This document shows positions 1 through 19,288 of a stretch of DNA of 21,384 bases, one piece after another (within the stretch, counting starts at the first letter, position 1; every line of letters begins with the position of its first letter). Under the pieces are notes generated by a model. That model saw only the letters and a list, made by a program, of their open reading frames with translations. It was not told the origin of the DNA and searched no databases. The DNA is taken from the IMG/VR virus record IMGVR_UViG_3300042309_002409, positions 1-21,384 of that record. One strand, written 5' to 3'. The translations under genes and the position numbers were made by a program. This stretch comes from a virus.

Positions 1-2560
1 TAGTTGTTGGAGCGCTTGTTGCAAAGACAGTGGCCGTGTCAAACACTGTGGTTGTAGAGAATACAGAGGTAGTTGCAAGTGAAGTATTGAAAGAGAGTGT
101 AGTATTTTTAGAAGTATCTCTTGCTGTTATTTGACCAGTGTCTCTAGCCGTATCAAATGTAGTAGTTGTGTCAAATGCAGTAGTTCTTTCAAACACAGTA
201 GTTGTGTTAAAGCTTGAGGTTGTTACTCTACTTGTTGCCGTTACTATGGAGGTTGCAAATATTGTTGTGGTACCAAATGCAGTAGTTGTAACTCTACTTG
301 TTGCCGTTACTGCAGATGTTGCGGTCAAGAAAGTTGTTAGAGTACTTCTGGATGTTGATCTGGATGCAGCTGCACTTGTTGATCTTACAGTGCTTGAGAA
401 GGTTGGTATTGTCCAAATAAATTGAACGCGACCATCTGCACCGTTACCACCAGCGCCATCATCGTCACCACCACCACCACCACCGCCACCTGGTGCTGTA
501 CCATTTGCTCCACCTGCTGCGTTCACACCACCAGCACCGCCAGCGCCACCGCTTGGAGCCGAACCACCAGTGCCACCAATGTTTAGACCAGGATAACCAC
601 CAGGATTGCCATCGGTGTTAGTATCACCACCTGAACCACCGCCAGCTAAGCCACCGTTACCACCAGTTATACCAGGTAAAAAGTTATCGTAATATGCACA
701 CTGACCGCCGCCGCCAGCACCCGCCTCAATATTAACCCCAGTACCAGTTACAGTAGACTGTCCGCCACCATCACCATATTGGAAGGCATCATCATCATTT
801 GGTGGAGGAGGATTTTGAAAACCTGTACCACCATTACCAACTGAGTAGTTAAATGATGTTGATCCACCAGTGACAGAAACAGTCTTAACCACATAAGCAC
901 CAGATCCACCACCACCGCCGCCAAGCGACACGGCACCTTCAGCGTGACCTGCACCACCGCCGCCACCAGCACCCCAAACTCTAATTTCTACAGAAGTAGC
1001 ACCAGATGGAGCAGTAACAGAGCCTGAGCCTGAATTATATGTGTCTGTTTGTGTTGTAGTTCCTGATTGTGTATCGTATGTGGTGTTAAATGAAGAGTCA
1101 TAAGCAGTAATAAATGTTGTTGTAGTATTTCTTGATGTAACTGTATCAAATGCGGTTGTGGTACCAAATTCAGTAGTTGTGCCTCTACTTGTGCCAGTAA
1201 CTAAGCTTGTATCAAAAATAGACGTAGTACCAAATACAGTAGTTGTAGCTACACTTGTGCCAGTGGCTCTACTTGTAGCAGTTTGTTTGCTTGTTGATGT
1301 TAATTTGCTAGTTAAGAATGTTGTAGTAAATGTTGTTGTGTAGGTTGTTGAAAATGTTGTACCAGCTATAGCTGTAGTAATATACACTGTTGTTGTTGCA
1401 AGAGATGTAGTTGTGGCTTTACTTGTGGCAGTATTTTTAGATGTGTCAAATATTGTTGTTGTACCAAAATTTGTAAGAAATGTAGTATTGAAAGTTGTTG
1501 TTGTATTGAAGGCAGTAGTTGTTGATTTGCTGGTATCATAACCAGTATCAAATGTTGTATTAAATGTTGTAGTTGTATTAAATACGGAGCTTGTTGTTTT
1601 AGATGTTGTTGTAGCCTTTGTAGTACCATATGCTGTATTGAACACTGTATCAAAGACAGTTGATGTTAGCTTGGTAGTGTTAAACACTGTAACATAAGCC
1701 GACACTGTGTTCTTAGCAGTATTGATTGTTGTATCAAATACTGTTGCAAATGTTGTAGATGTGTTTTTAGACGTTCCTACCAACGTATTAAATAATGTGT
1801 CAAACGTAGTTGTTGTGTTGAATACAGACGATGTTACAACAGATGTAGATGTACTCTTCAATACAGAAGTATCAGTAGATTTGCTTGTTCCAGTATTTTT
1901 AGATGTTGCAAATGTTGTAGCAAATAGAGTATTGAATAGCGTTGTTGTATTAAATGTTGTTACAATTGTTGTATCAAACGTTGTTGTTGTTGCTGGAGTG
2001 GAACTTTTGGTTGTTGCAACAAGTGTATTGTAATTGGTTACTCTAGATGTTTCTGTTGCTTTATTTGTATCAAATAGTGTTGATGTTGTCTTAGATGTTA
2101 CAGATACTGTTGTTTTATTTGTTGCAAATATTGTTGATGTATCAAATACTGATTCATAAGCTGTAACAAATTGCGTTGTTGTGTTTTTACTTGTTCCAAA
2201 CGTTGTATTGAATAATGTAAAATATGAAGTGGTTGTATTAAATACAGAACTTGTTTGGTAGGTAGTTACTCTATTTGTAGAAATTGCTGTATTGAACAGC
2301 GTTAACGTTGACTTGCTTGTTGCTGTAGCAAATGTGGATGTTTTTAGAGTTGATGTGGAATAAGATGTGAGTAGATCTGTTTGTCTAATTTGTTGAATAT
2401 TGAAACTTGTTTCAATTGCACCTCTTGCAACTTCCTTTCTAATAGAAACATAATCTGTTGCCAATGGTGCCGTAGCAAAAACAACATTGTTATTTGAAAT
2501 AGTATAATCGACACCTAGTGTCTGTAATATACCATTTTTTTTAACAGTTACTATACTCAT
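1..2560 (-). CDS. Giant Thr/Ser-repeat tail fibre with Gly-rich domain (partial, 3' end off window)
   Basis: The frame opens at an ATG that overlaps the previous gene's TGA (ATGA) and stays open to the left edge, giving at least 853 residues. Residues 1-45 resemble a phage fibre beta module (KKNGILQTLGVDYTI, then VVFATAPLATD). Residues of about 60-505 are low-complexity Thr/Ser repeats built from units such as FNTTTTFDT, TSKNT and TSRVT, with Thr recurring every 4 or 6 residues. Residues of about 508-713 form a Gly-rich domain introduced by VTAPSGATSVEIRVWGAG, like the glycine-rich domains of many phage fibres and adhesins. Thr repeats then resume to the edge. The position after gp6 and the gp7-like wedge gene suggests a baseplate-attached fibre or receptor-binding protein; that role is inferred. 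The repeats suggest a long fibrous shaft. No chaperone or C-terminal tip can be seen because the gene is cut by the window. Confidence 0.8.
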   Translation of the reverse strand, partial: MSIVTVKKNGILQTLGVDYTISNNNVVFATAPLATDYVSIRKEVARGAIETSFNIQQIRQTDLLTSYSTSTLKTSTFATATSKSTLTLFNTAISTNRVTTYQTSSVFNTTTSYFTLFNTTFGTSKNTTTQFVTAYESVFDTSTIFATNKTTVSVTSKTTSTLFDTNKATETSRVTNYNTLVATTKSSTPATTTTFDTTIVTTFNTTTLFNTLFATTFATSKNTGTSKSTDTSVLKSTSTSVVTSSVFNTTTTFDTLFNTLVGTSKNTSTTFATVFDTTINTAKNTVSAYVTVFNTTKLTSTVFDTVFNTAYGTTKATTTSKTTSSVFNTTTTFNTTFDTGYDTSKSTTTAFNTTTTFNTTFLTNFGTTTIFDTSKNTATSKATTTSLATTTVYITTAIAGTTFSTTYTTTFTTTFLTSKLTSTSKQTATSRATGTSVATTTVFGTTSIFDTSLVTGTSRGTTTEFGTTTAFDTVTSRNTTTTFITAYDSSFNTTYDTQSGTTTQTDTYNSGSGSVTAPSGATSVEIRVWGAGGGGGAGHAEGAVSLGGGGGGSGAYVVKTVSVTGGSTSFNYSVGNGGTGFQNPPPPNDDDAFQYGDGGGQSTVTGTGVNIEAGAGGGGQCAYYDNFLPGITGGNGGLAGGGSGGDTNTDGNPGGYPGLNIGGTGGSAPSGGAGGAGGVNAAGGANGTAPGGGGGGGGDDDGAGGNGADGRVQFIWTIPTFSSTVRSTSAAASRSTSRSTLTTFLTATSAVTATSRVTTTAFGTTTIFATSIVTATSRVTTSSFNTTTVFERTTAFDTTTTFDTARDTGQITARDTSKNTTLSFNTSLATTSVFSTTTVFDTATVFATSAPTT
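425..1033 (-). other. Glycine-rich domain within the fibre gene
   Basis: This stretch codes for runs of Gly with Ala, Asn, Asp and Ser (GGGGGG, GAGGNGADGR, GGTGGSAPSGGAGGAGG) between two Thr-repeat blocks. It opens with a short beta-type segment (SVTAPSGATSVEIRVWG) and closes with GRVQFIW, the usual edges of Gly-rich fibre domains. In T4-type adhesins, polyglycine loops carry receptor specificity, so this may be the host-contact part, although here it is internal rather than C-terminal in what can be seen. Confidence 0.7.
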
Positions 2561-6770: not shown

Positions 6771-7097
6771 TTAACCATTAGCAAAGACATCAGATGAACC
6801 CTTTGTGATAACATTGGCCTCATCCGTCCCTGTTCCATACTCATCGCCAACTCTTCCTATCTGTTTGTTTCCAATGTAGACATCAGGGGAAACCTTATCT
6901 AGTAGAGACTCATCTGGTGTGCATCCTTTTTTATTATGGGCGGCAATTTTGTTACCCTTAACAGGAATCAGTTTGCTATTTGCAAACACCGAATGGGAAT
7001 TCACCGCATCAACTTTTGTTTTAACCGGACTCACACACCTATTTCCAATTCCTGTTGGCGATTGTACTTCATCATCCTTTCTTGCTACTGCTGTCAT
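6771..7097 (-). CDS. PAAR-like spike-tip protein
   Basis: The product has 108 residues and starts in an ATGA overlap with the gp5 stop. PAAR proteins form the sharpened cone on the central spike of contractile tails (gp5.4 in T4), usually holding a metal ion. Here an N-terminal block (GIGNRCVSPVKTKVDAVNSH) and a C-terminal block (DVYIGNKQIGRVGDEYGTGT, residues of about 72-91) match the two halves of the PAAR fold, with His, Cys and Asn residues able to bind metal. Being coupled to the gp5 spike gene is the standard arrangement and supports the call. No toxic extension is attached. Confidence 0.8.
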   Translation of the reverse strand: MTAVARKDDEVQSPTGIGNRCVSPVKTKVDAVNSHSVFANSKLIPVKGNKIAAHNKKGCTPDESLLDKVSPDVYIGNKQIGRVGDEYGTGTDEANVITKGSSDVFANG

Positions 7098-8809
7098 CCT
7101 AGTCGCTGTCCTGGCTTCAAGTCCACAAATTTGCCTCTGGTGTGAACCCTTGGAACACTCCAGGTGGCAATAGGGAGGCTATGTTTTACGCCTGGTTGGT
7201 AACCAATATGGACCCAACCTGGTCCACCGCCACTCAAATTGTACTCAAGAAAAAACTGCTTAGAAATTTTACCAACAATTGGATATATCTTTAATGCAGC
7301 TTCATAGGCTGACATGCCAATTACGTTGAAATCTACTGCTCGGCCATAATTGTGGTCTGATTTGTTATTTGTACCACCACCAGTTAGTTTAACACTTGGT
7401 GTTCTAAATCCTGATGTTATTGATACACGTATACCTGCAGCAACTATTGGCTCCATAATATTCTCAGCTAGTTTTACAATATTGCAAAGAATGTCAGCCA
7501 CAGAGGCCTCGTTGAAGGCTTGCAATTTTCTTGTACCATTTTGAGTAAAGTCGGCAAGAGTGAAATTTTTTGATACTCTGACTTTTTTGTAATCATCAAG
7601 AAGAATAATTGATCCACACTTGACTTCCTTATCGGTGCCGCCCGCAGGAGGTATTGCTGAATCACCAACTGGTGGCGTGCCAGGTTGCCCAGGTAGTGGT
7701 GTATCAGCAACAGGAGGTAATCCATTTGCAATAAGAACACTGTTGTAATTTTCAATTGGTTTTTCAAAGTCATCATCAAACGCAAGTATTTCAAATACTG
7801 TTGGTGCTCCAGACTCTTGTTTTACAATTGTTTCTGGGGAAAGAATGGAACCAAGTGGTTTAGCAGTTGGCTTATTGAAATGCACTTGACTGCCTTGCAA
7901 CTCAACATTACCACCTGAATAAATGATTGCAGTGTCGCCAGAGTCAATGTTTGTTGTGCCGGCAACTGCAACATCAAAGTTGCCTCCAATATCCATTCTC
8001 AAGTTACCACCAACTCTCCATGTAGCATCACCGCCAGTTGAAATGTTTGTGTTAGCACCAGCCACAATATTGACAGCACCAACAACGGACATATTCATAT
8101 TGCCACCCGCATATAAATTTTCGTTATTGAAAACTACATGATAGCGATCGTTAGCACCTCTATGAACTATTGAACCATTTGGGTGGAATTCTATAAATGA
8201 ACCTTTCCTATGGAAAATTTGAATTCGTTCTGCTTGTGGTGTATCATCAAGCTCAAAAACATGCCCTCCATCTGTTTCCATAACGTGGTTGAAAGGATAC
8301 CTTGCATCAAATTCAGAAATAGGTTCGGCAAACTTTGTACCATCCGCAACAGGAACACCAGAGGTAGCAGATGATCTTGAAAATGCGATGGCATTTCTAT
8401 CTACTGTTCCAACCTCACCTCTTGCATGTCTTGGGTTTGTTCCCTCACCAGGAAATCTTGGATGAATACCTGATGGGTCATAGAATCCCTCATTTGGATT
8501 TGCTTGCTCTTGAGGAATACCTACAAGCGAACCAATCACAACTGGCTGCTGTGCCATATTGCCATCTATGAAGAACCCAATAACCCAGTCGCCTTGATTG
8601 ACCATTGGAGCTGACATTTGGGCAGTAGAGGAGAGGAATGGAGCCCACGGCAAATTGCCTGTTGGTAATAGAGTTTTATCCTTTGGGTGGAACCCTATAC
8701 AGCGCACCCTCACTCTATTGATAAGCTGTGGGTCGTTCACATCCTCCACAACACCCATAAACCAAACCATTGAACTAAATTGCGATTCGCCATCTGATAC
8801 TTTTGACAT
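7094..8809 (-). CDS. 5: Baseplate hub spike gp5 with C-terminal M15 peptidase domain
   Basis: The product has 571 residues. Residues of about 14-98 form the OB-fold of gp5/VgrG spikes (MGVVEDVNDP, RVRVRCIGFHP, QGDWVIGFFIDG). About 170-310 is repetitive beta, with strings such as GGNMNMSVVGAVNIVAGANTN, the spike-helix pattern. A Pro/Gly linker follows (about 360-395). Residues of about 405-550 are a peptidase M15 domain: SDHNYGRAVDF gives H486 and D493 (HX6D), FLEYN offers the probable catalytic E522, and GWVHIGY gives H534. This would be a zinc D,D- or L,D-peptidase cutting peptidoglycan cross-links. T4 gp5 instead carries a glycosidase (lysozyme) between its OB-fold and spike, so both the chemistry and the position differ. 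The next gene encodes the PAAR tip that caps the spike. Confidence 0.88.
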   Translation of the reverse strand: MSKVSDGESQFSSMVWFMGVVEDVNDPQLINRVRVRCIGFHPKDKTLLPTGNLPWAPFLSSTAQMSAPMVNQGDWVIGFFIDGNMAQQPVVIGSLVGIPQEQANPNEGFYDPSGIHPRFPGEGTNPRHARGEVGTVDRNAIAFSRSSATSGVPVADGTKFAEPISEFDARYPFNHVMETDGGHVFELDDTPQAERIQIFHRKGSFIEFHPNGSIVHRGANDRYHVVFNNENLYAGGNMNMSVVGAVNIVAGANTNISTGGDATWRVGGNLRMDIGGNFDVAVAGTTNIDSGDTAIIYSGGNVELQGSQVHFNKPTAKPLGSILSPETIVKQESGAPTVFEILAFDDDFEKPIENYNSVLIANGLPPVADTPLPGQPGTPPVGDSAIPPAGGTDKEVKCGSIILLDDYKKVRVSKNFTLADFTQNGTRKLQAFNEASVADILCNIVKLAENIMEPIVAAGIRVSITSGFRTPSVKLTGGGTNNKSDHNYGRAVDFNVIGMSAYEAALKIYPIVGKISKQFFLEYNLSGGGPGWVHIGYQPGVKHSLPIATWSVPRVHTRGKFVDLKPGQRLG

Positions 8810-11661: not shown

Positions 11662-12108
11662 ATGAAGAGTCTAAAAGGTCGCTATAGAGTCAAAAATCCA
11701 CAAAAATACAAAGGTGACTCCACCAATGTTATTTATCGTTCATCTCTAGAGCTCAAATTGATGAATTATTTAGATGCCCACCCAGATGTGATTGAGTGGT
11801 CAAGTGAGGAGTTTTTTGTTCCATATAGATCACCCCTTGACAACAAGATACACCGCTACTTTCCTGACTTTAGTGTGAAGAGGCGGGATAGGGATGGCAA
11901 TATAGACAAAATAGTGATTGAAATAAAACCATCAACCCAGACGCGGCCTCCTGAGAGAAAATCTAGAGTGACACCTAGGTATATAACAGAGGTTAAAAAC
12001 TGGGGAATAAATAATGCTAAGTGGGAAGCATGTAAAAGCTTTTGCGATAGTAGACAGTGGAAATTTCAAATACTAACTGAAAAAGAAATCAATGGTTACA
12101 AATATTAA
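11662..12108 (+). CDS. 4: Head completion protein gp4 (PD-(D/E)XK nuclease-like)
   Basis: The product has 148 residues, the same as T4 gp4 (about 150). gp4 is needed to complete DNA-filled heads before tails attach and belongs to the TnsA/VSR-like nuclease fold. Visible marks are LKGRYRVKNPQKYKGD at the N-terminus, YRSSLELKLMNYL with E30, YFPDF with D69, and IEIKP with E87 and K89, which together make the PD-(D/E)XK core. The conserved N-terminal block right after the ATG supports this start. There is no ribosome-binding site before it: only 12 bases separate it from the opposite gp48 ATG, and most of them are the late promoter. The next gene overlaps its end by 17 bases. Confidence 0.9.
   Translation: MKSLKGRYRVKNPQKYKGDSTNVIYRSSLELKLMNYLDAHPDVIEWSSEEFFVPYRSPLDNKIHRYFPDFSVKRRDRDGNIDKIVIEIKPSTQTRPPERKSRVTPRYITEVKNWGINNAKWEACKSFCDSRQWKFQILTEKEINGYKY
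11730..11737 (-). promoter_or_regulatory. Probable late promoter for gp48 cluster (inside gp4)
   Basis: GATAAATA on the minus strand fits the NATAAATA consensus of marine T4-like late promoters and lies 81 bases upstream of the gp48 ATG. No closer match exists for the leftward cluster. It faces the gp4 promoter, so both transcripts would share about 60 antisense bases. An A/T-rich genome gives some chance matches, hence the moderate confidence. Confidence 0.45.
12006..12013 (+). promoter_or_regulatory. Possible internal late promoter within gp4
   Basis: AATAAATA on the plus strand lies 79 bases upstream of the ATG at 12092. It fits the NATAAATA consensus but is inside coding sequence, so it may be a chance match. 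Confidence 0.25.
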
Positions 12109-12697
12109 TCCTGTATATCAAAAGATAGTTGATGAGGCTGCAAGTCAAAATATCATCCTCGACAACTCTCGAGAGTCACTTGAGTGGCTAAGGAAAAAGT
12201 ATACGTCACTAAAACCATCAACATTTACAGAAGCAAAATTCTTAAAAGACCAGGACCGCCGCAGAAGGAATCCACTTGTTGGGCGGTTGTATATGTTTTT
12301 ATATAACCCAAAGACAAAAGCCCAACTACCATATTACGATAGATTCCCACTTGTATTCCCATACAAGAAAGTTCCTGGTGGTTTTTATGGCCTCAATTTG
12401 CACTACCTGCCACCTAAATTTAGAGCTCTACTAATGGATAGCTTATTTGAAACATTATCCAACACAAGACTAGATGAGTCAACAAAGCTAAGGATTAGCT
12501 ACAAAATTTTAGATAGTTCTTCTAAATATAGATGGTTCAAACCATGTGTTAAGCATTATTTGACAAACCATCTCCAGTCAACATTTATATATGTTGAGCC
12601 ATCGGAGTGGAACTTGGCATTGTTTGTACCATCAGAACAGTTTAGAAAGGATAGTAAAGCAAACGTGTGGCAAGATTCAATTAAGGCTGTAAATTAA
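12092..12697 (+). CDS. Conserved T4-like phage structural protein, function not certain
   Basis: The product has 201 residues, starts inside the last codons of gp4 and ends in a TAATG overlap with gp54. The central block PLVGRLYMFLYNPKTKAQLP, YYDRFPLVFPYKK and GGFYGLNLHYLPPKFRALLMD is a pattern I recall as widely conserved in marine T4-like phages. Many Trp and Tyr residues follow, with the C-terminal half (ISYKILDSSSKYRWFKPCVKHYL) also looking conserved. In T4 the partner of gp4 is gp2, the DNA-end protector of the head, so this could be its counterpart, but I cannot show that from the sequence. No nuclease motif, membrane segment or signal is visible. Confidence 0.7.
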   Translation: MVTNINPVYQKIVDEAASQNIILDNSRESLEWLRKKYTSLKPSTFTEAKFLKDQDRRRRNPLVGRLYMFLYNPKTKAQLPYYDRFPLVFPYKKVPGGFYGLNLHYLPPKFRALLMDSLFETLSNTRLDESTKLRISYKILDSSSKYRWFKPCVKHYLTNHLQSTFIYVEPSEWNLALFVPSEQFRKDSKANVWQDSIKAVN

Positions 12698-13722
12698 TGG
12701 CATTCAGTATAGAAGAATTCAAGTCAGGCACCCAGCATGGGTTTTTAAAGCCATCAAATTTTTTGGTTTACATACAGCCACCTCAATGCATACTTAGAGT
12801 AAAAGACAATGAGGCAATAGATATTCCTAATCTTATATACCTTACAGCTGCAGCAAGCTTACCAGGAATACAGATACTTACAACAGAAAACAAGATATAT
12901 GGGCAAGGCCCAACAGTAAAGATGCCATATGATATTGGCGTTACAGATATGACTTTAAAGTTTTACGTTGATGCTGGTTCTAAATCAATGGTATATTTCT
13001 ATAACTGGATAAGAAATGTTGTTAATCTAAGCCATAAACAAGATGAGGCACGCCAAGGAGCTTTTAGTAATCAAGTATCTTACAGAAAAGATTATGAGAC
13101 AACAATTGATATCCTGCTGTATGGCAATAGAATGAGAGGTAATGATACAGATGAATTTGAGGGGTCAACAACAATGTTTACTTTATATGATGCTTACCCT
13201 GTTTCCATTACTGAACCACAGCTTGACTGGCAAGGTGGCAATGAAATTATGACATTCAGTGTTGTGTTTACATACCGCTCATTTGAACAAGCTGTGTTCC
13301 CTCTTCAAGACCCAGTTGTTGGTAGTAGAGAGGTTGTGGAGCCGGCACCTGTTGATTTGTCAGAATTCAAATACCGCAAGCTAGGCGTCGCCGGGCCAGA
13401 TGGTGCCCAACAAGACAACTCTGGTGAATCAACAACAGAAAATCCTTCATTGCTTGATAGAATCAATAAAAAAGCAACAAATATAAGAGACGCTTCTTTC
13501 AAGATTAGAACAGAAGCTGTGTCACAATTGCAGAAAGCTGAAGCGGCAATTGCAAAAAGCAGACTTCTAACAACGGCCGGCAATATTGTGGGAACAGTTA
13601 ATGATGTGAAGAAAACAATAGGTGTGTTGAAAAACTTAAACAACACTTTGAAGCAAGATCTTAAACAACAACTTAAAACCACACTGGGTGGTACAAGTTT
13701 GAAAAATCTAACTAAATTTTAA
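12697..13722 (+). CDS. 54: Baseplate tail-tube initiator gp54
   Basis: The product has 341 residues, close to T4 gp54 (320). It caps the baseplate hub next to gp48 and is the platform on which the tube protein polymerises. The first 200 residues have the tail-tube-type beta fold: GFLKPSNFLVYIQPP, YLTAAASLPGIQI, GPTVKMPYDIGVTDMTLKFY, FYNWIRNVVNL, and FTLYDAYPVSITEPQLDW, the last typical of tube and initiator proteins. The C-terminal 100 residues are charged and helical (RINKKATNIRDASFKIRTEA), suggesting a coiled segment. It starts in the stop codon of the previous gene. Confidence 0.87.
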   Translation: MAFSIEEFKSGTQHGFLKPSNFLVYIQPPQCILRVKDNEAIDIPNLIYLTAAASLPGIQILTTENKIYGQGPTVKMPYDIGVTDMTLKFYVDAGSKSMVYFYNWIRNVVNLSHKQDEARQGAFSNQVSYRKDYETTIDILLYGNRMRGNDTDEFEGSTTMFTLYDAYPVSITEPQLDWQGGNEIMTFSVVFTYRSFEQAVFPLQDPVVGSREVVEPAPVDLSEFKYRKLGVAGPDGAQQDNSGESTTENPSLLDRINKKATNIRDASFKIRTEAVSQLQKAEAAIAKSRLLTTAGNIVGTVNDVKKTIGVLKNLNNTLKQDLKQQLKTTLGGTSLKNLTKF

Positions 13723-13740: not shown

Positions 13741-14430
13741 ATGCCATTACCAAAAATTAACCAACCAATTCATCAATTAACCTTACCATCAAATGGAAAG
13801 GTTGTTCACTTTAGACCATTCACCGTAAGAGAAGAAAAGCTTTTACTAATGGCACAAGAGTCAGGTGAACAAAAGGATATTATCAACACATATAAGCAAC
13901 TAATTACTAATTGCTGTATAGATCCAGTTGATGTAGATAAACTAGCATCGTTTGATATTGAATATTTCTTCATATCACTAAGAGCTAAATCTGTTTCTAA
14001 TATTGCCAAAGTATTAATTAGGGACGAAGATGACAAGGAACAATATGAGGTTGAAGTCAACCTTGATAAGGTGGAAGTAGTTAAGAAGCCAAACGTCAGC
14101 AACAATATTAGCTTGACCGGTACAATTGGCGTAATACTCCAATACCCAACATTTGAATCTATTATTGCACAGGGTAGCGATAAAGTTGACACGTTAACAA
14201 TTTTGAGAAACTGCATAACACAGATATATGATGGTGAAGAAGTGTTTGATGTTGCCAACTATACTACCAAAGAGCTGGACGAGTTTGTGTTATCACTTAA
14301 CACGCATCAAATGGAAAAGATCAGAGAATTTTTTGAGTCTATACCAAAAATTGTTGCCAAAGTTAAGTATATTACAAAGGCAGGCGTGGTGAAGGAAATG
14401 ACAATTGAGGGCATCAACAATTTTTTCTAG
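13741..14430 (+). CDS. 26: gp26-like baseplate hub / tail assembly chaperone protein
   Basis: The product has 229 residues (T4 gp26 has 208) and a strong GAGGTGA ribosome-binding site. The T4 base plate protein family is recognised from QPIHQLTLPSNGKVVHFRPFTVREEKLLLMA, FDIEYFFISLRAKSVS and MEKIREFFESIPKI. In T4, gp26 acts in hub assembly together with gp51, gp28 and gp29. Its place just before the tape measure is that of the tail assembly chaperones (gpG-GpGT in lambda). The last codons are AAT TTT TTC TAG, an in-frame T TTT TTC slippery site directly before the stop. A -1 shift there would continue through CTA GTA into the 62-codon frame, giving a fusion of about 293 residues. Confidence 0.85.
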   Translation: MPLPKINQPIHQLTLPSNGKVVHFRPFTVREEKLLLMAQESGEQKDIINTYKQLITNCCIDPVDVDKLASFDIEYFFISLRAKSVSNIAKVLIRDEDDKEQYEVEVNLDKVEVVKKPNVSNNISLTGTIGVILQYPTFESIIAQGSDKVDTLTILRNCITQIYDGEEVFDVANYTTKELDEFVLSLNTHQMEKIREFFESIPKIVAKVKYITKAGVVKEMTIEGINNFF

Positions 14431-14459
14431 TATTGGCTGGGTATAACAACTTAGCCAAT
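14407..14459 (+). promoter_or_regulatory. Candidate -1 programmed ribosomal frameshift cassette
   Basis: Four elements are seen directly. A GAGG Shine-Dalgarno-like element (14407-14410) lies 10 bases before the slippery site. The heptamer T TTT TTC (14421-14427) is in the zero frame. The stop TAG follows at once (14428-14430). A stem ATTGGCT/AGCCAAT (14432-14438 with 14453-14459), extended by two G-U pairs, starts 4 bases after the heptamer. The layout is like E. coli dnaX and the lambda-type G/GT chaperone shift. Confidence 0.7.
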
Positions 14460-14621
14460 TATTATCAAACAGTTTTTGCATTATGCCAACACCATAAATA
14501 TTCTATTAGTGACGTAGAAGAACTTTTGCCATTTGAGCGCGACATTTATGTTGCACTATTGATTGATTATCTTGAGAAAGAAAAAGAACGATTAAGAAAG
14601 CAAGGGATCAAGGATATCTAA
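14433..14621 (+). CDS. Short frame after gp26-like gene, probably read as a frameshift extension
   Basis: The frame holds 62 codons in the -1 frame relative to the gp26-like gene. It has no ATG near its start: the first possible start is TTG at 14433, which has no ribosome-binding site at proper distance and lies inside the predicted stem. The product (FALCQHHKYSISDVEELLPFERDIYVALLIDYLEKEKERL) has the 'S..dv..lpf.er.iy..ll..yle.E' pattern common in tail assembly chaperone T-domains and small proteins before tape measures. It is best seen as the T-part of a G/GT-like pair, playing the role that gp51 or gp28 may fill in T4. The tape measure ATG follows 3 bases later. Confidence 0.7.
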   Translation: MAGYNNLANYYQTVFALCQHHKYSISDVEELLPFERDIYVALLIDYLEKEKERLRKQGIKDI

Positions 14622-14624
14622 CTA

Positions 14625-16628
14625 ATGGCAAGACGGTCTTTACCAAACCCAAGCAGGGAACAAAACCAAGCGGTGGTTGCTGCTAAGGTTACAATTATAA
14701 ATCAGCCAATAGAGGTGAAACTCTTTGGAACTCAAGGCGATGCACTTGAGCGTCTTGTTGTTCTTTTCACAAATGTATCTGACAATCTATACAACATAGC
14801 TGGGATCATGGGAGCTCAGCTAACGTCACTAAAAGAGACAGAAGATGCGTTAAAGGATTCAATGGCGGCCGCCAAGGATGCTGAAAATCAACAACTAGAA
14901 GCAAGAAGAGAAGAAAAAAAGTCAACTGGGAAAGAAAAAGAATCAAAAAATCCTTTCCAAAAATTAATAGACTTTTTTGAAGGTTTAATTAATATATTAA
15001 TACCATTCATTGTTGGTTTCTTTATTGGCTTGAAAAAAGAGTTTGGATTGATAGCAGCTCTTGTCCTTGTATTCAGGAAACAGATTTTTTCTGTATTAAA
15101 GTTGATCCCTGGTATTGTAAAGGGCGCAGCCGAGGGGATAGGAAAACTATTCAACTCTACCAAAAATATATTTGCAAATGTTGTTACGAGGGTAGGATCA
15201 GTTAGTGGATCAATTGCAACTCAATTTAGTAAAGCAGTTGGCTCTATCAAAAACACCTTTAGAGCCCTCCTTGTAATAAATTCTAACTTGATTGGGAAGA
15301 TAGTTGATTTTTTCACTCGCATTAAAAATCTCTTCACATCAAACAAACTAATAGCTACCATAAGTGGTGCATTCAATAAAATGTTCTCAATTGCAAGCGA
15401 TGTTGGCAAAACAATTACCAATGTTGGCGTTAGGTTAAAGTCAGTAGCAAAGATGATTGCTACACCGTTTCAAATTTTATCTAATGCGGTGTCAAAGCTT
15501 GGGGACCTTTTCAAGGGCCCTGTTCTCAAAGCCATTGACTTAGTCTCAAAAGCATTTGATACAGTTAAGGGCCTTTTTAAACCTCTTGCAAGTGTATTCA
15601 AAGCGGGTGCAAGCTTTGGAAGAATCCTAGGACCAATAGGTGTAGCGATAGGTGCCGTGATGGCAGTATTCAAAGGCGTCAGGCAAGCCTTTGCTGGTTT
15701 TGAAAAAGAAGGGATCTTTGGAGCAATCAAGGGTTTTGCAGCCGGCATAGTTAGTAGTGTCGTTGGGTTCTTGGGCGATATAGGTTCGTTTATAATTGGT
15801 AAGTTACTATCACTTCTTGGTTTTGAAGAGCTTGGTGAAAGAATAGCGTCGCTTGACTTTACGGAAATGTTGAACCAGGCAATTATGGGATTATTTGATA
15901 ATGTTAAAAGTGCATTTACGGGTATGTTTGGTAAGCTGACGGGTGGGTTCAAAAAGATATTCTCTGGTGAGGATATTATAGGTGGCATTGTCGATGTATT
16001 TACTGCAATACCTGGTTTACTAATTGATTTGATAACATCACCATTTGAAGCTCTAGGTGAGGCTATTAAAGAAGTGTTTGATTTTGACTTTGCTGCCTTG
16101 GCTAAGAAGCTCCTAATTGCAATAGCGCCACCAGATTCAGTCGTGGGCAAGATGATTGGTACTGGCCAGATGCAAAAAGAGGTAGATATTTCAGACGCCC
16201 AAATGCAAGCTCAAAGAGCTGCTAAAGAAGAAGCAAAGAAGGATGAAGCAAAGCAAGAAGGAAGTGTTGCGGCAACATCTCCGACCCCAACTCCATCCCC
16301 AACTCCAACACAGACTCAAGCAACTCGTAGCCCAGTATCAGCAGCACCTGTAGCCAGAGCGGCACCAGGAGCAGCACCTGTAACACCAACTGCCATGGCA
16401 CCAGTAGCCACAGCGGCACCAGGAGCCGCTATCAATATGGCATCTCAGAATGTTGCGGGAGTGCCTCGAGGCGCCGGCGGATCATCCCAGAATGTTGTTG
16501 CTCCCGTAACTACAACAAATGTTAATAATAGCCAGTCACAGAATGTTAGCATTAGACCAAATGCAACGCCTACATTTGGTATGTCAAATAGTGGCACTGG
16601 CGCTATGGTTCCGGTATTTGGATTCTAA
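14625..16628 (+). CDS. 29: Tail tape measure protein (gp29-like)
   Basis: The product has 667 residues, somewhat longer than T4 gp29 (590). A tape measure protein fixes tail length and is packed in the tube. A start region with AKVTIINQPIEVKLFGTQGDALERL leads into helices (about residues 50-105), a hydrophobic hairpin (about 113-145, LIDFFEGLINILIPFIVGFFIG), and long helical repeats with many Phe, Lys and Ile (FKPLASVFKAGASFGRILGPIGVAIGAVMAVF, about 325-355) that include further membrane-like stretches. A charged helix ends near 545. The C-terminal part of about 110 residues is low-complexity Ala/Pro/Thr, then Gln/Asn/Ser. Position after the gp26-like chaperone and the hydrophobic helices support the call; there is no lysozyme domain. 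Confidence 0.85.
   Translation: MARRSLPNPSREQNQAVVAAKVTIINQPIEVKLFGTQGDALERLVVLFTNVSDNLYNIAGIMGAQLTSLKETEDALKDSMAAAKDAENQQLEARREEKKSTGKEKESKNPFQKLIDFFEGLINILIPFIVGFFIGLKKEFGLIAALVLVFRKQIFSVLKLIPGIVKGAAEGIGKLFNSTKNIFANVVTRVGSVSGSIATQFSKAVGSIKNTFRALLVINSNLIGKIVDFFTRIKNLFTSNKLIATISGAFNKMFSIASDVGKTITNVGVRLKSVAKMIATPFQILSNAVSKLGDLFKGPVLKAIDLVSKAFDTVKGLFKPLASVFKAGASFGRILGPIGVAIGAVMAVFKGVRQAFAGFEKEGIFGAIKGFAAGIVSSVVGFLGDIGSFIIGKLLSLLGFEELGERIASLDFTEMLNQAIMGLFDNVKSAFTGMFGKLTGGFKKIFSGEDIIGGIVDVFTAIPGLLIDLITSPFEALGEAIKEVFDFDFAALAKKLLIAIAPPDSVVGKMIGTGQMQKEVDISDAQMQAQRAAKEEAKKDEAKQEGSVAATSPTPTPSPTPTQTQATRSPVSAAPVARAAPGAAPVTPTAMAPVATAAPGAAINMASQNVAGVPRGAGGSSQNVVAPVTTTNVNNSQSQNVSIRPNATPTFGMSNSGTGAMVPVFGF
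16344..16426 (+). repeat. Pair of 29-bp direct repeats in the tape measure gene
   Basis: Bases 16344-16372 and 16398-16426 match at 27 of 29 positions, 54 bases (18 codons) apart. They code for APVARAAPGA and APVATAAPGA in the Ala/Pro-rich tail of the tape measure protein, so copy number could change in frame. Confidence 0.8.
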
Positions 16629-17692: not shown

Positions 17693-18277
17693 CTATTGAT
17701 GAAAATAGTCAACAGTTATTTTTTTCGTCTTCACCTTATCAAATGCTACAAATGGTGCATACTTTTGTAGCCTACTACACAGTACTGGCCAAATAGCAGG
17801 GTCAGCTATCTCTTGCTGCCAATACTTAATAAAATTCATATGAACGTTGAGAATAATTATAGTCTCTGGTGATATAGTTTTGCCAATATAATGTTTGAGT
17901 AACTTTGGGTGCTGGCCATCAAAGACTTGCAATGAGCTATCAATGTCAGCTGGTAACTTTTTTAGCTCTTCACTATAGACATACGATATCGAGTTCTGTC
18001 TGCCCTTCCACTTAAGGTACACATCATCACTAATCTCAGCATTTACAATATCACCTATCCATGCATCCGGACAATCAATAAAGTTAGCAACAAGAAGGCC
18101 AAGAGGGTCGCTGTGCTTTTGAAGCTTAGAGAAGAAATATTTGTCTTTGCGAACTTCAAAAGAAGTATACTGGACTTTCACCTTACCATTATACTTAAAG
18201 TAATCGTAGCTAGTATGAAAGTGATTCTTGATTGCTATGTAAAGTTGATATGCTTCGTACGGACTTTGCAGTTGCAT
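17693..18277 (-). CDS. 59: Helicase loader gp59
   Basis: The product has 194 residues from the chosen ATG (T4 gp59: 217). It binds fork DNA and gp32 and loads the gp41 replicative helicase. It aligns by eye with T4 gp59 over much of its length: AYQLYIAIKNHF (T4 VYKLYLMIKQHM), RKDKYFFSKLQK (T4 RRDKYFFQKL), DAWIGDI (identical), and LLKHYIGKTISPETIIILN (T4 LLQSNIISFETFILLD). The frame is open 20 codons further upstream to a TTG, but the ATG at 18277 puts the family start in place and is preferred. It overlaps the previous gene by 68 bases in a different frame. Confidence 0.92.
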   Translation of the reverse strand: MQLQSPYEAYQLYIAIKNHFHTSYDYFKYNGKVKVQYTSFEVRKDKYFFSKLQKHSDPLGLLVANFIDCPDAWIGDIVNAEISDDVYLKWKGRQNSISYVYSEELKKLPADIDSSLQVFDGQHPKLLKHYIGKTISPETIIILNVHMNFIKYWQQEIADPAIWPVLCSRLQKYAPFVAFDKVKTKKITVDYFHQ

Positions 18278-18821
18278 ATGTGTACCAGTTGGGTGCTTTT
18301 CTATACTTCCAACGTGCAAACTTAGACTTACTACCAATGTAGAAGTTTCTATAAGCGATCACTGGATCCTTATCTTTATATTCTTCAGGCATTGCTTGAA
18401 CAAATGATTGTACTTTCAAACCAGGGCCTGGCATGTTACGTGGGTGACCAACGGTTGCCAAATAATCCACAATTGATTGGCATGCATGTGTCTTCTTATA
18501 CCTTAGTGTATATTCCTGACATAAGGTATGTGTGTGGTTCAACAACCAGTTATAGTTCCGAATGTCTTCCCTAATCCAAATGTTACATGGATGCTTAAAG
18601 TGAACAGCATGATAAAGAACAAGATCTCTACAATCATCTAACTTGTACCTAGGAACCATTCTCTTACCAGAGACGGATGGCTGTATTGACATTGTGCCAT
18701 CTAAAACCCTATGGCAAGTTGATAACATCTGAACACTCTCTGTTACCATCTTAACCACATGCTGGTCACATAGCATCTGAGCTGCTATAGCAGGATGTTT
18801 ATCTACAATGAATATATTCAT
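18210..18821 (-). CDS. Conserved phage protein of unknown function
   Basis: The product has 203 residues from the ATG at 18821, which lies 5 bases past the previous stop; a TTG 15 bases upstream is possible but would overlap that stop. The start MNIFIVDKHPAIAAQMLCDQ and HVVKMVTESVQMLSTCHRVLDG, the HFKHPCNIWIREDIRNYNWL block, and AYRNFYIGSKSKFARW with APNWY are patterns I recall from a widespread phage and bacterial family without assigned function. It is rich in His and Trp and has no membrane segment. The family usually ends around APNWY (residue 180), so the last 22 or so residues, which overlap gp59, may be a local extension. A role in DNA metabolism would only be inferred from neighbours gp59 and gp32. 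Confidence 0.75.
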   Translation of the reverse strand: MNIFIVDKHPAIAAQMLCDQHVVKMVTESVQMLSTCHRVLDGTMSIQPSVSGKRMVPRYKLDDCRDLVLYHAVHFKHPCNIWIREDIRNYNWLLNHTHTLCQEYTLRYKKTHACQSIVDYLATVGHPRNMPGPGLKVQSFVQAMPEEYKDKDPVIAYRNFYIGSKSKFARWKYRKAPNWYTYATAKSVRSISTLHSNQESLSY

Positions 18822-18826
18822 GTAGC

Positions 18827-19288
18827 TTAATCCCAAAGATTCTCATAATATTTTCCAAAAAGGCGGAATGCGTTCTTCTTCCTTCCGAAGTATTTATTCC
18901 TCTTCTCGTTGTCTAGTTTGCCGTTTTTTACTATGCCGTCTTTGTTCCACTTGGGCTTCTCAATCCAGAAATTGGGTTCTTTGTCTTTGACTTCTTCGCC
19001 AAATGCCCAAATCATTTCGTCGAGAACCCAGTCCCAACGCTTGAAGTGAAACTCATCTGTATCCCAATCATTTTTCTTTGGCTTGGCAGCAGTCGAACGA
19101 AGATGCTCGGGGACATCTTCATCATCAGTATATGGTGCTCCATGCTGTGTTTTCTTCAACTGCTTGAGCATTGGGTGAATGATCAACGCAAGAGTTGCGT
19201 CCATGTTCCATGTGTCCCATGGATCAATGCGAACAGAGACTTTCTGTTTACCGTCTTTCTTTGGGTATTTACCGATTAAAACTTTCAT
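18827..19288 (-). CDS. Conserved hypothetical phage protein (DTWNMD / WDWVLDEMIWAF type)
   Basis: The product has 153 residues and an ATGA overlap with the upstream membrane protein gene. Two blocks look like a known phage family of unknown function: VSVRIDPWDTWNMDATLALIIHPMLKQLKKTQHG (residues of about 18-51) and FKRWDWVLDEMIWAFGEE (about 82-99). It is rich in Trp, Asp and Lys, with a charged C-terminus (KRNKYFGRKKNAFRLFGKYY). The family is frequent in T4-like marine phages. No catalytic motif is recognised. Confidence 0.8.
   Translation of the reverse strand: MKVLIGKYPKKDGKQKVSVRIDPWDTWNMDATLALIIHPMLKQLKKTQHGAPYTDDEDVPEHLRSTAAKPKKNDWDTDEFHFKRWDWVLDEMIWAFGEEVKDKEPNFWIEKPKWNKDGIVKNGKLDNEKRNKYFGRKKNAFRLFGKYYENLWD
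18891..18898 (-). promoter_or_regulatory. Possible late-type promoter before the 203-residue unknown gene
   Basis: AATAAATA on the minus strand fits NATAAATA and lies 70 bases before the ATG at 18821, inside the upstream gene. The match may be by chance in A/T-rich DNA, as it codes for ordinary residues (NKYF). Confidence 0.3.

Follow-up and report, generated by a model that had tools for sequence, protein, structure and literature searches.

The window analysed here is a viral record of 21,384 bases whose gene profile matches are those of a T4-like myophage. A profile search recognised T4-like genes for gp5, a gp48-like protein, a gp2-like protein, the tail tube, gp32 and gp59, and a T4-like marine myophage is the best explanation for the origin of the locus. 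A gp26-like gene at 13741..14430 (+) codes for a protein of 229 aa, the predicted short tail assembly chaperone (TAC-N). This protein matched PF12322 (gp26 / T4_baseplate; E 5.5e-54; 183.6 bits against a curated cut-off of 24.5; residues 10-229) and PHROG 150 (E 2.8e-58). It is followed by an open frame at 14427..14621 (+) which lies in the -1 frame and would be read only after a shift. Residues 3-57 of this frame aligned with positions 61-115 of the profile PHROG 634, 'baseplate hub assembly catalyst' (gp51), with an E value of 6.3e-23; judged by this match, the second frame is the gp51 (TAC-C) domain and no anonymous ORF. Directly upstream of the gp26-like gene lies a gene for a tail-tube-like protein (12697..13722, +; PF06841, E 1.2e-7; PHROG 45, E 2.8e-32), and downstream of the second frame lies the gene for the tape measure protein, the expected client (14625..16628, +; PHROG tape measure families, best E 2e-9). 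The order tube, chaperone pair, tape measure is that of other long-tailed phages.

The 3' end of the gp26-like ORF reads AAC AAT TTT TTC TAG. Given the reading AAT TTT TTC TAG in this gene, the T TTT TTC at 14421..14427 (+) is in the phase X XXY YYZ of a -1 slippery heptamer, and the zero-frame stop TAG follows directly at 14428..14430 (+). Both the heptamer with its stop (14421-14430) and a GAGG 10 bases before it (14407-14410) had been noted in a preliminary description of this DNA and were recovered base by base. The GAGG is part of the SD-like element GAGGG (14407..14411, +), a likely stimulator in view of its sequence and its enrichment in relatives. Folding with ViennaRNA predicted an RNA hairpin of 11 pairs with a 6-base loop at 14432..14459 (+), in which 14432-14442 pairs with 14449-14459 through nine Watson-Crick and two G-U pairs (about -13.8 kcal/mol). 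It begins 4 bases after the heptamer, as described before; the stem had been given as seven perfect plus two G-U pairs, and these form the core of the longer one. The -1 frame is open up to a stop at 14619-14621. It lacks an ATG, and its single start-like codon, TTG 14433, is inside the stem. The fusion comprises 293 aa with the junction NNFF-LVLAGYNN, so that the account given earlier of the second frame and of its fusion product also holds. The window thus combines an in-phase X XXY YYZ heptamer with an open -1 frame, the two elements of a programmed -1 site.

Relatives of gp26 were located by tblastn in 590 phage records, in which the fusion query usually aligned as two pieces at one place. 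The alignment of homologous gp26 regions proposed earlier as a check was made with 110 loci (92 from IMG/VR, 17 from phage records, and the window), of which 105 are distinct at the junction. They stem from marine contigs and from cyano-, pelagi-, rhizobial, Stenotrophomonas, Aeromonas, Vibrio and Pseudomonas phages. T TTT TTN was present in the same phase shortly before the stop in 104 of the 105 distinct loci (TTTTTTC in 60, TTTTTTT in 41, TTTTTTA in two and TTTTTTG in one), at a distance of 0-8, mostly 0-3, codons from the stop. Likewise, the -1 frame extends 54-68 codons beyond the stop in 104 of 105 loci, and it is kept as protein among the relatives. Its sole exception, L006, has an apparent one-base deletion relative to L004. 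The first Phe codon is TTT in all 104 heptamer-bearing loci, compared with 67% of the other Phe codons in these genes, and the preceding codon (Asp, Asn, Ser, Thr or Arg) ends in T in all 104. Since the distinct loci fall into 55 clusters at 60% protein identity and still into 32 at 50%, this conservation does not derive from one recent ancestor. The combined chance of the fixed synonymous positions is about 10^-38 if the loci are taken as independent, and about 10^-11 if only the 32 clusters below 50% identity are counted. On these comparisons, the heptamer together with the open -1 frame is beyond chance. Poor conservation of T TTT TTC among homologues, which the preliminary description had named as speaking against a shift, was not seen. 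The only relative devoid of the heptamer is Vibrio phage K475 (L024:2700-2905), in which gp26 ends CTT TTT GCG TAA and an ATG overlaps the stop as TAATG (TAATGATG); this is perhaps a change to a separate start. A scan of the collection with T4 gp26 yielded only six loci, all from T4 relatives.

The flanking elements were examined in 103 loci. A five-base SD-like string occurred between -22 and -5 upstream of the heptamer in 41 of them, compared with 1.5% of control positions. Where a Glu-Gly pair is present at this site, GAG and GAA are used 40:14 as against 12:45 at other Glu-Gly pairs (P 2e-8; here and in the structure statistics the loci were treated as independent, which overstates significance and leaves the direction unaffected). 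RNA structure was scored as folding relative to codon-preserving shuffles. The signal peaked in a 45-base segment from +6 behind the heptamer (mean Z -1.96; P<=0.05 in 56% of loci), while mean Z was near 0 along most of the locus outside the peak. The nearest relative of the window, L031, keeps the stem, with one G-U pair replaced by G-C. A trade-off between SD-like element and hairpin was not observed, the mean downstream energies being -8.13 and -8.18 kcal/mol (P 0.74).

Frameshifting is reportedly kept in several T4-like groups, and T4 is said to use the separate genes 26 and 51. In our searches T4 gp26 and T4 gp51 both matched PF12322, and the C-terminal part of gp51 additionally matched PHROG 634. 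As T4 gp51 thus consists of a gp26-like domain plus a C-terminal part, the short and long forms of T4 correspond to two related genes, which are located on opposite strands. With T4 gp51, a profile built from 103 fusions aligned across the junction (hhalign probability 97.0; 238 columns, within columns 11-279); its alignment with T4 gp26 reached as far as the Phe-Phe pair (probability 98.9). The T4 gp28 control did not match the fusion profile (hhalign probability 0.2). Hence, of the separate T4 genes that the preliminary description had listed, 26 and 51 stand; gp28, which showed no similarity in the profile alignment, does not belong to the pair. In T4 gene 26 the Phe-Phe pair is encoded by the non-slippery TTC TTT, with gene 25 behind it, so that T4, in which the long form has its own gene, lacks the slippery codons.

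The predicted structure of the window gp26 (AlphaFold2, pLDDT 85.9) resembles models of viral gp26 proteins. The closest solved structure in VIA-align was YqbN (3klu) with a middling Z of 7.1, an rmsd of 4.0 and 85 residues; the next PDB structure had a Z of 4.1. YqbN is a B. subtilis protein which we take to belong to the XkdN chaperone family, Phage_TAC_5. This family (PF08890) forms rings in B. subtilis. A Foldseek search of the PDB with the gp26 model returned no significant match, the gp26 profile gave only chance matches among PDB sequences, and PF08890 did not match the window sequence. Because Foldseek alone was not significant, the likeness of the model to YqbN is taken as a hint of a chaperone fold.

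Several explanations other than ribosomal frameshifting were considered. Database records annotate gp51 as a separate gene, which could be translated by coupling or by reinitiation at TTG 14433 after termination of gp26; termination-reinitiation across a few bases is common in phages, and K475 with its overlapping ATG fits such a course. Some ATG is found near the beginning of the -1 frame in 85 of 103 loci, so independent starts are possible in some relatives. In the window, however, this frame has no ATG, its TTG lies hidden within the hairpin, and some 21 bases separate GAGGG from that codon. Homologues with an ATG and a ribosome-binding site for the second frame, named earlier as a finding that would speak against a shift, turned out to be rare: an ATG with an SD-like element at the usual spacing is present in only six of 103, which makes an independent start unlikely. 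Moreover, a separate gp51 gene leaves the fixed phase of T TTT TTN and the fixed synonymous codons unexplained, and we regard it as very improbable.

The same fusion could arise from an altered mRNA if RNA polymerase slipped on the T run, as such runs can cause transcript slippage and one added base gives the -1 frame. Yet in 63 of 104 loci the run stops at six T, the seventh base being C, A or G, and slippage of this kind needs no phase, whereas that of the heptamer is invariant. The site is also flanked by features that stimulate ribosomal shifting, an SD-like element 10 bases before it and a hairpin. With respect to run length, phase and stimulators, transcript slippage is unlikely, even more so than a separate start. 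Finally, the T run might merely reflect a conserved Phe-Phe pair and AT-rich codon use. The pair is indeed invariant or nearly so in gp26 and is kept in T4 without a shift, but there it is encoded as TTC TTT, while in the loci compared here the synonymous positions are fixed and the -1 frame is conserved as protein. The codon counts reject a by-product of Phe-Phe or of AT content, and the probability left to it is negligible.

Ribosomal frameshifting is therefore the reading we prefer. Conservation together with the homologies to T4 gp26 and gp51 suggests that the locus would encode a short/long pair of tail assembly chaperones, similar to lambda G/GT, by -1 frameshifting; we assign this a probability of roughly 0.93. 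The G/GT-type interpretation offered in the preliminary description is thus supported by conservation, homologies and gene order. Most ribosomes would end at TAG 14428 and release the short form of 229 aa (TAC-N, gp26). A minority would be paused by the hairpin and by pairing of the SD-like GAGGG with 16S rRNA, both tRNAs would slip back by one base on T TTT TTC, and reading onward in the -1 frame would yield the long form of 293 aa (TAC-NC, gp26-gp51). Both forms would act on the tape measure protein encoded by the next gene, binding and solubilising it, and the long form would recruit tail-tube subunits as in lambda G/GT. From the observed signal, phase, conservation and homologies we infer the slippage itself, its rate and the chaperone role of the products. 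Instead of the shift, the T4 branch has the two related genes 26 and 51. We lean towards the view that heptamer, SD-like element and hairpin act as a set to drive the shift in marine and other T4-like phages, and that the shift disappeared from the T4 branch upon the emergence of gene 51, a second and full-length copy of the short-plus-long frame. If so, this branch records a switch from translational recoding to gene duplication.

Parts of this arrangement have counterparts in known systems. The -1 frameshift of E. coli dnaX is stimulated by a downstream hairpin and by an SD-like element located some 10 bases ahead of the heptamer, as proposed here; it differs in its heptamer, A AAA AAG, and in that its shifted product is the short one. 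In lambda the slippery heptamer is G GGA AAG, as opposed to T TTT TTY, flanked by an SD-like element and a hairpin, at the present locus. The locus is likened to lambda gpG/gpGT (Xu, Hendrix, Duda 2004) by layout: in both, the short gene carries a -1 frameshift site close to its end for making a short and a long product, and the genes lie between those for tube and tape measure. The chaperones of Vandenendeviridae/Andersonviridae (phage Adele) have a GTTTTT motif (PMC12846349). They appear to share with the locus a T-rich slippery motif and a conserved open -1 frame, but belong to other phage families, and the motif is one T shorter.

The preliminary description had presented the extension of the scheme to T4-like phages as new. 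As far as their work is reported in PMC10885494 and PMC12846349, Vladimirov, Gautam and Davidson (Virology 2022) had already described the chaperones of T4-like phages, including the two-gene form of T4. According to the account in PMC10885494, frameshifting is replaced in some T4-like phages by two separate genes, one short and one a long fusion, and PMC12846349 cites Vladimirov et al. for T-rich slippery sites that T4-like phages have in their TAC-N genes. So far as these accounts go, the same protein families occur in short and short-plus-C-terminal long forms before the tape measure gene there and at the present locus. In T4 the long form has a gene to itself, 51, on the strand opposite to 26; at the present locus a single frameshift would produce it. 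In view of this precedence, as reported, our finding is an independent rediscovery and the locus a further member. Among the papers searched, none dealt with frameshifting in cyanophage gp26, and the breadth of the signal and its conserved flanking stimulators may therefore be new detail.

In the annotated isolate records examined (L014, L029 and others), gp26 and gp51 were never joined. The start codon of gp51 is often placed just after the gp26 stop, and Aeromonas phages 65 and vB_AdhaM_G2 carry a gp51 frame that is annotated hardly or not at all. Most likely, the 'gp51' of hundreds of records of cyanophages and relatives is the frameshifted tail of gp26 and not a gene of its own, so that annotations and proteomics searches need correction. 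The old T4 designations 'baseplate hub subunit' and 'hub assembly catalyst' would refer to chaperones of the tape measure, as the 2022 proposal has it.

In several phages, gp51 and the tape measure gene are separated by an additional ORF of about 110-150 aa (L013:3374-3820, L015:3403-3735, L016:3411-3740, L017:3394-3813, L025:2865-3230), which the window lacks. Elsewhere in the window, a protein with a TnsA-like endonuclease domain (PF08722) is encoded at 11662-12108 (+), where the annotation of relatives has the head completion protein (gp4). The C-terminal part of the gp5-like hub protein (7094-8809, -) contains a peptidase M15-type domain (PF08291); the protein gave no match to a lysozyme domain. 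The protein at 2-2560 (-), which runs off the contig, consists of a glycine-rich domain (PF21722) flanked by long repeats rich in T and F (FNTTTTFDT-like) and is probably a tail fibre or adhesin. At 17693-18836 (-), the ORF list gives two genes that share about 128 bases, one for a gp59-like helicase loader and the other pyrimidine dimer glycosylase-like (PF03013).
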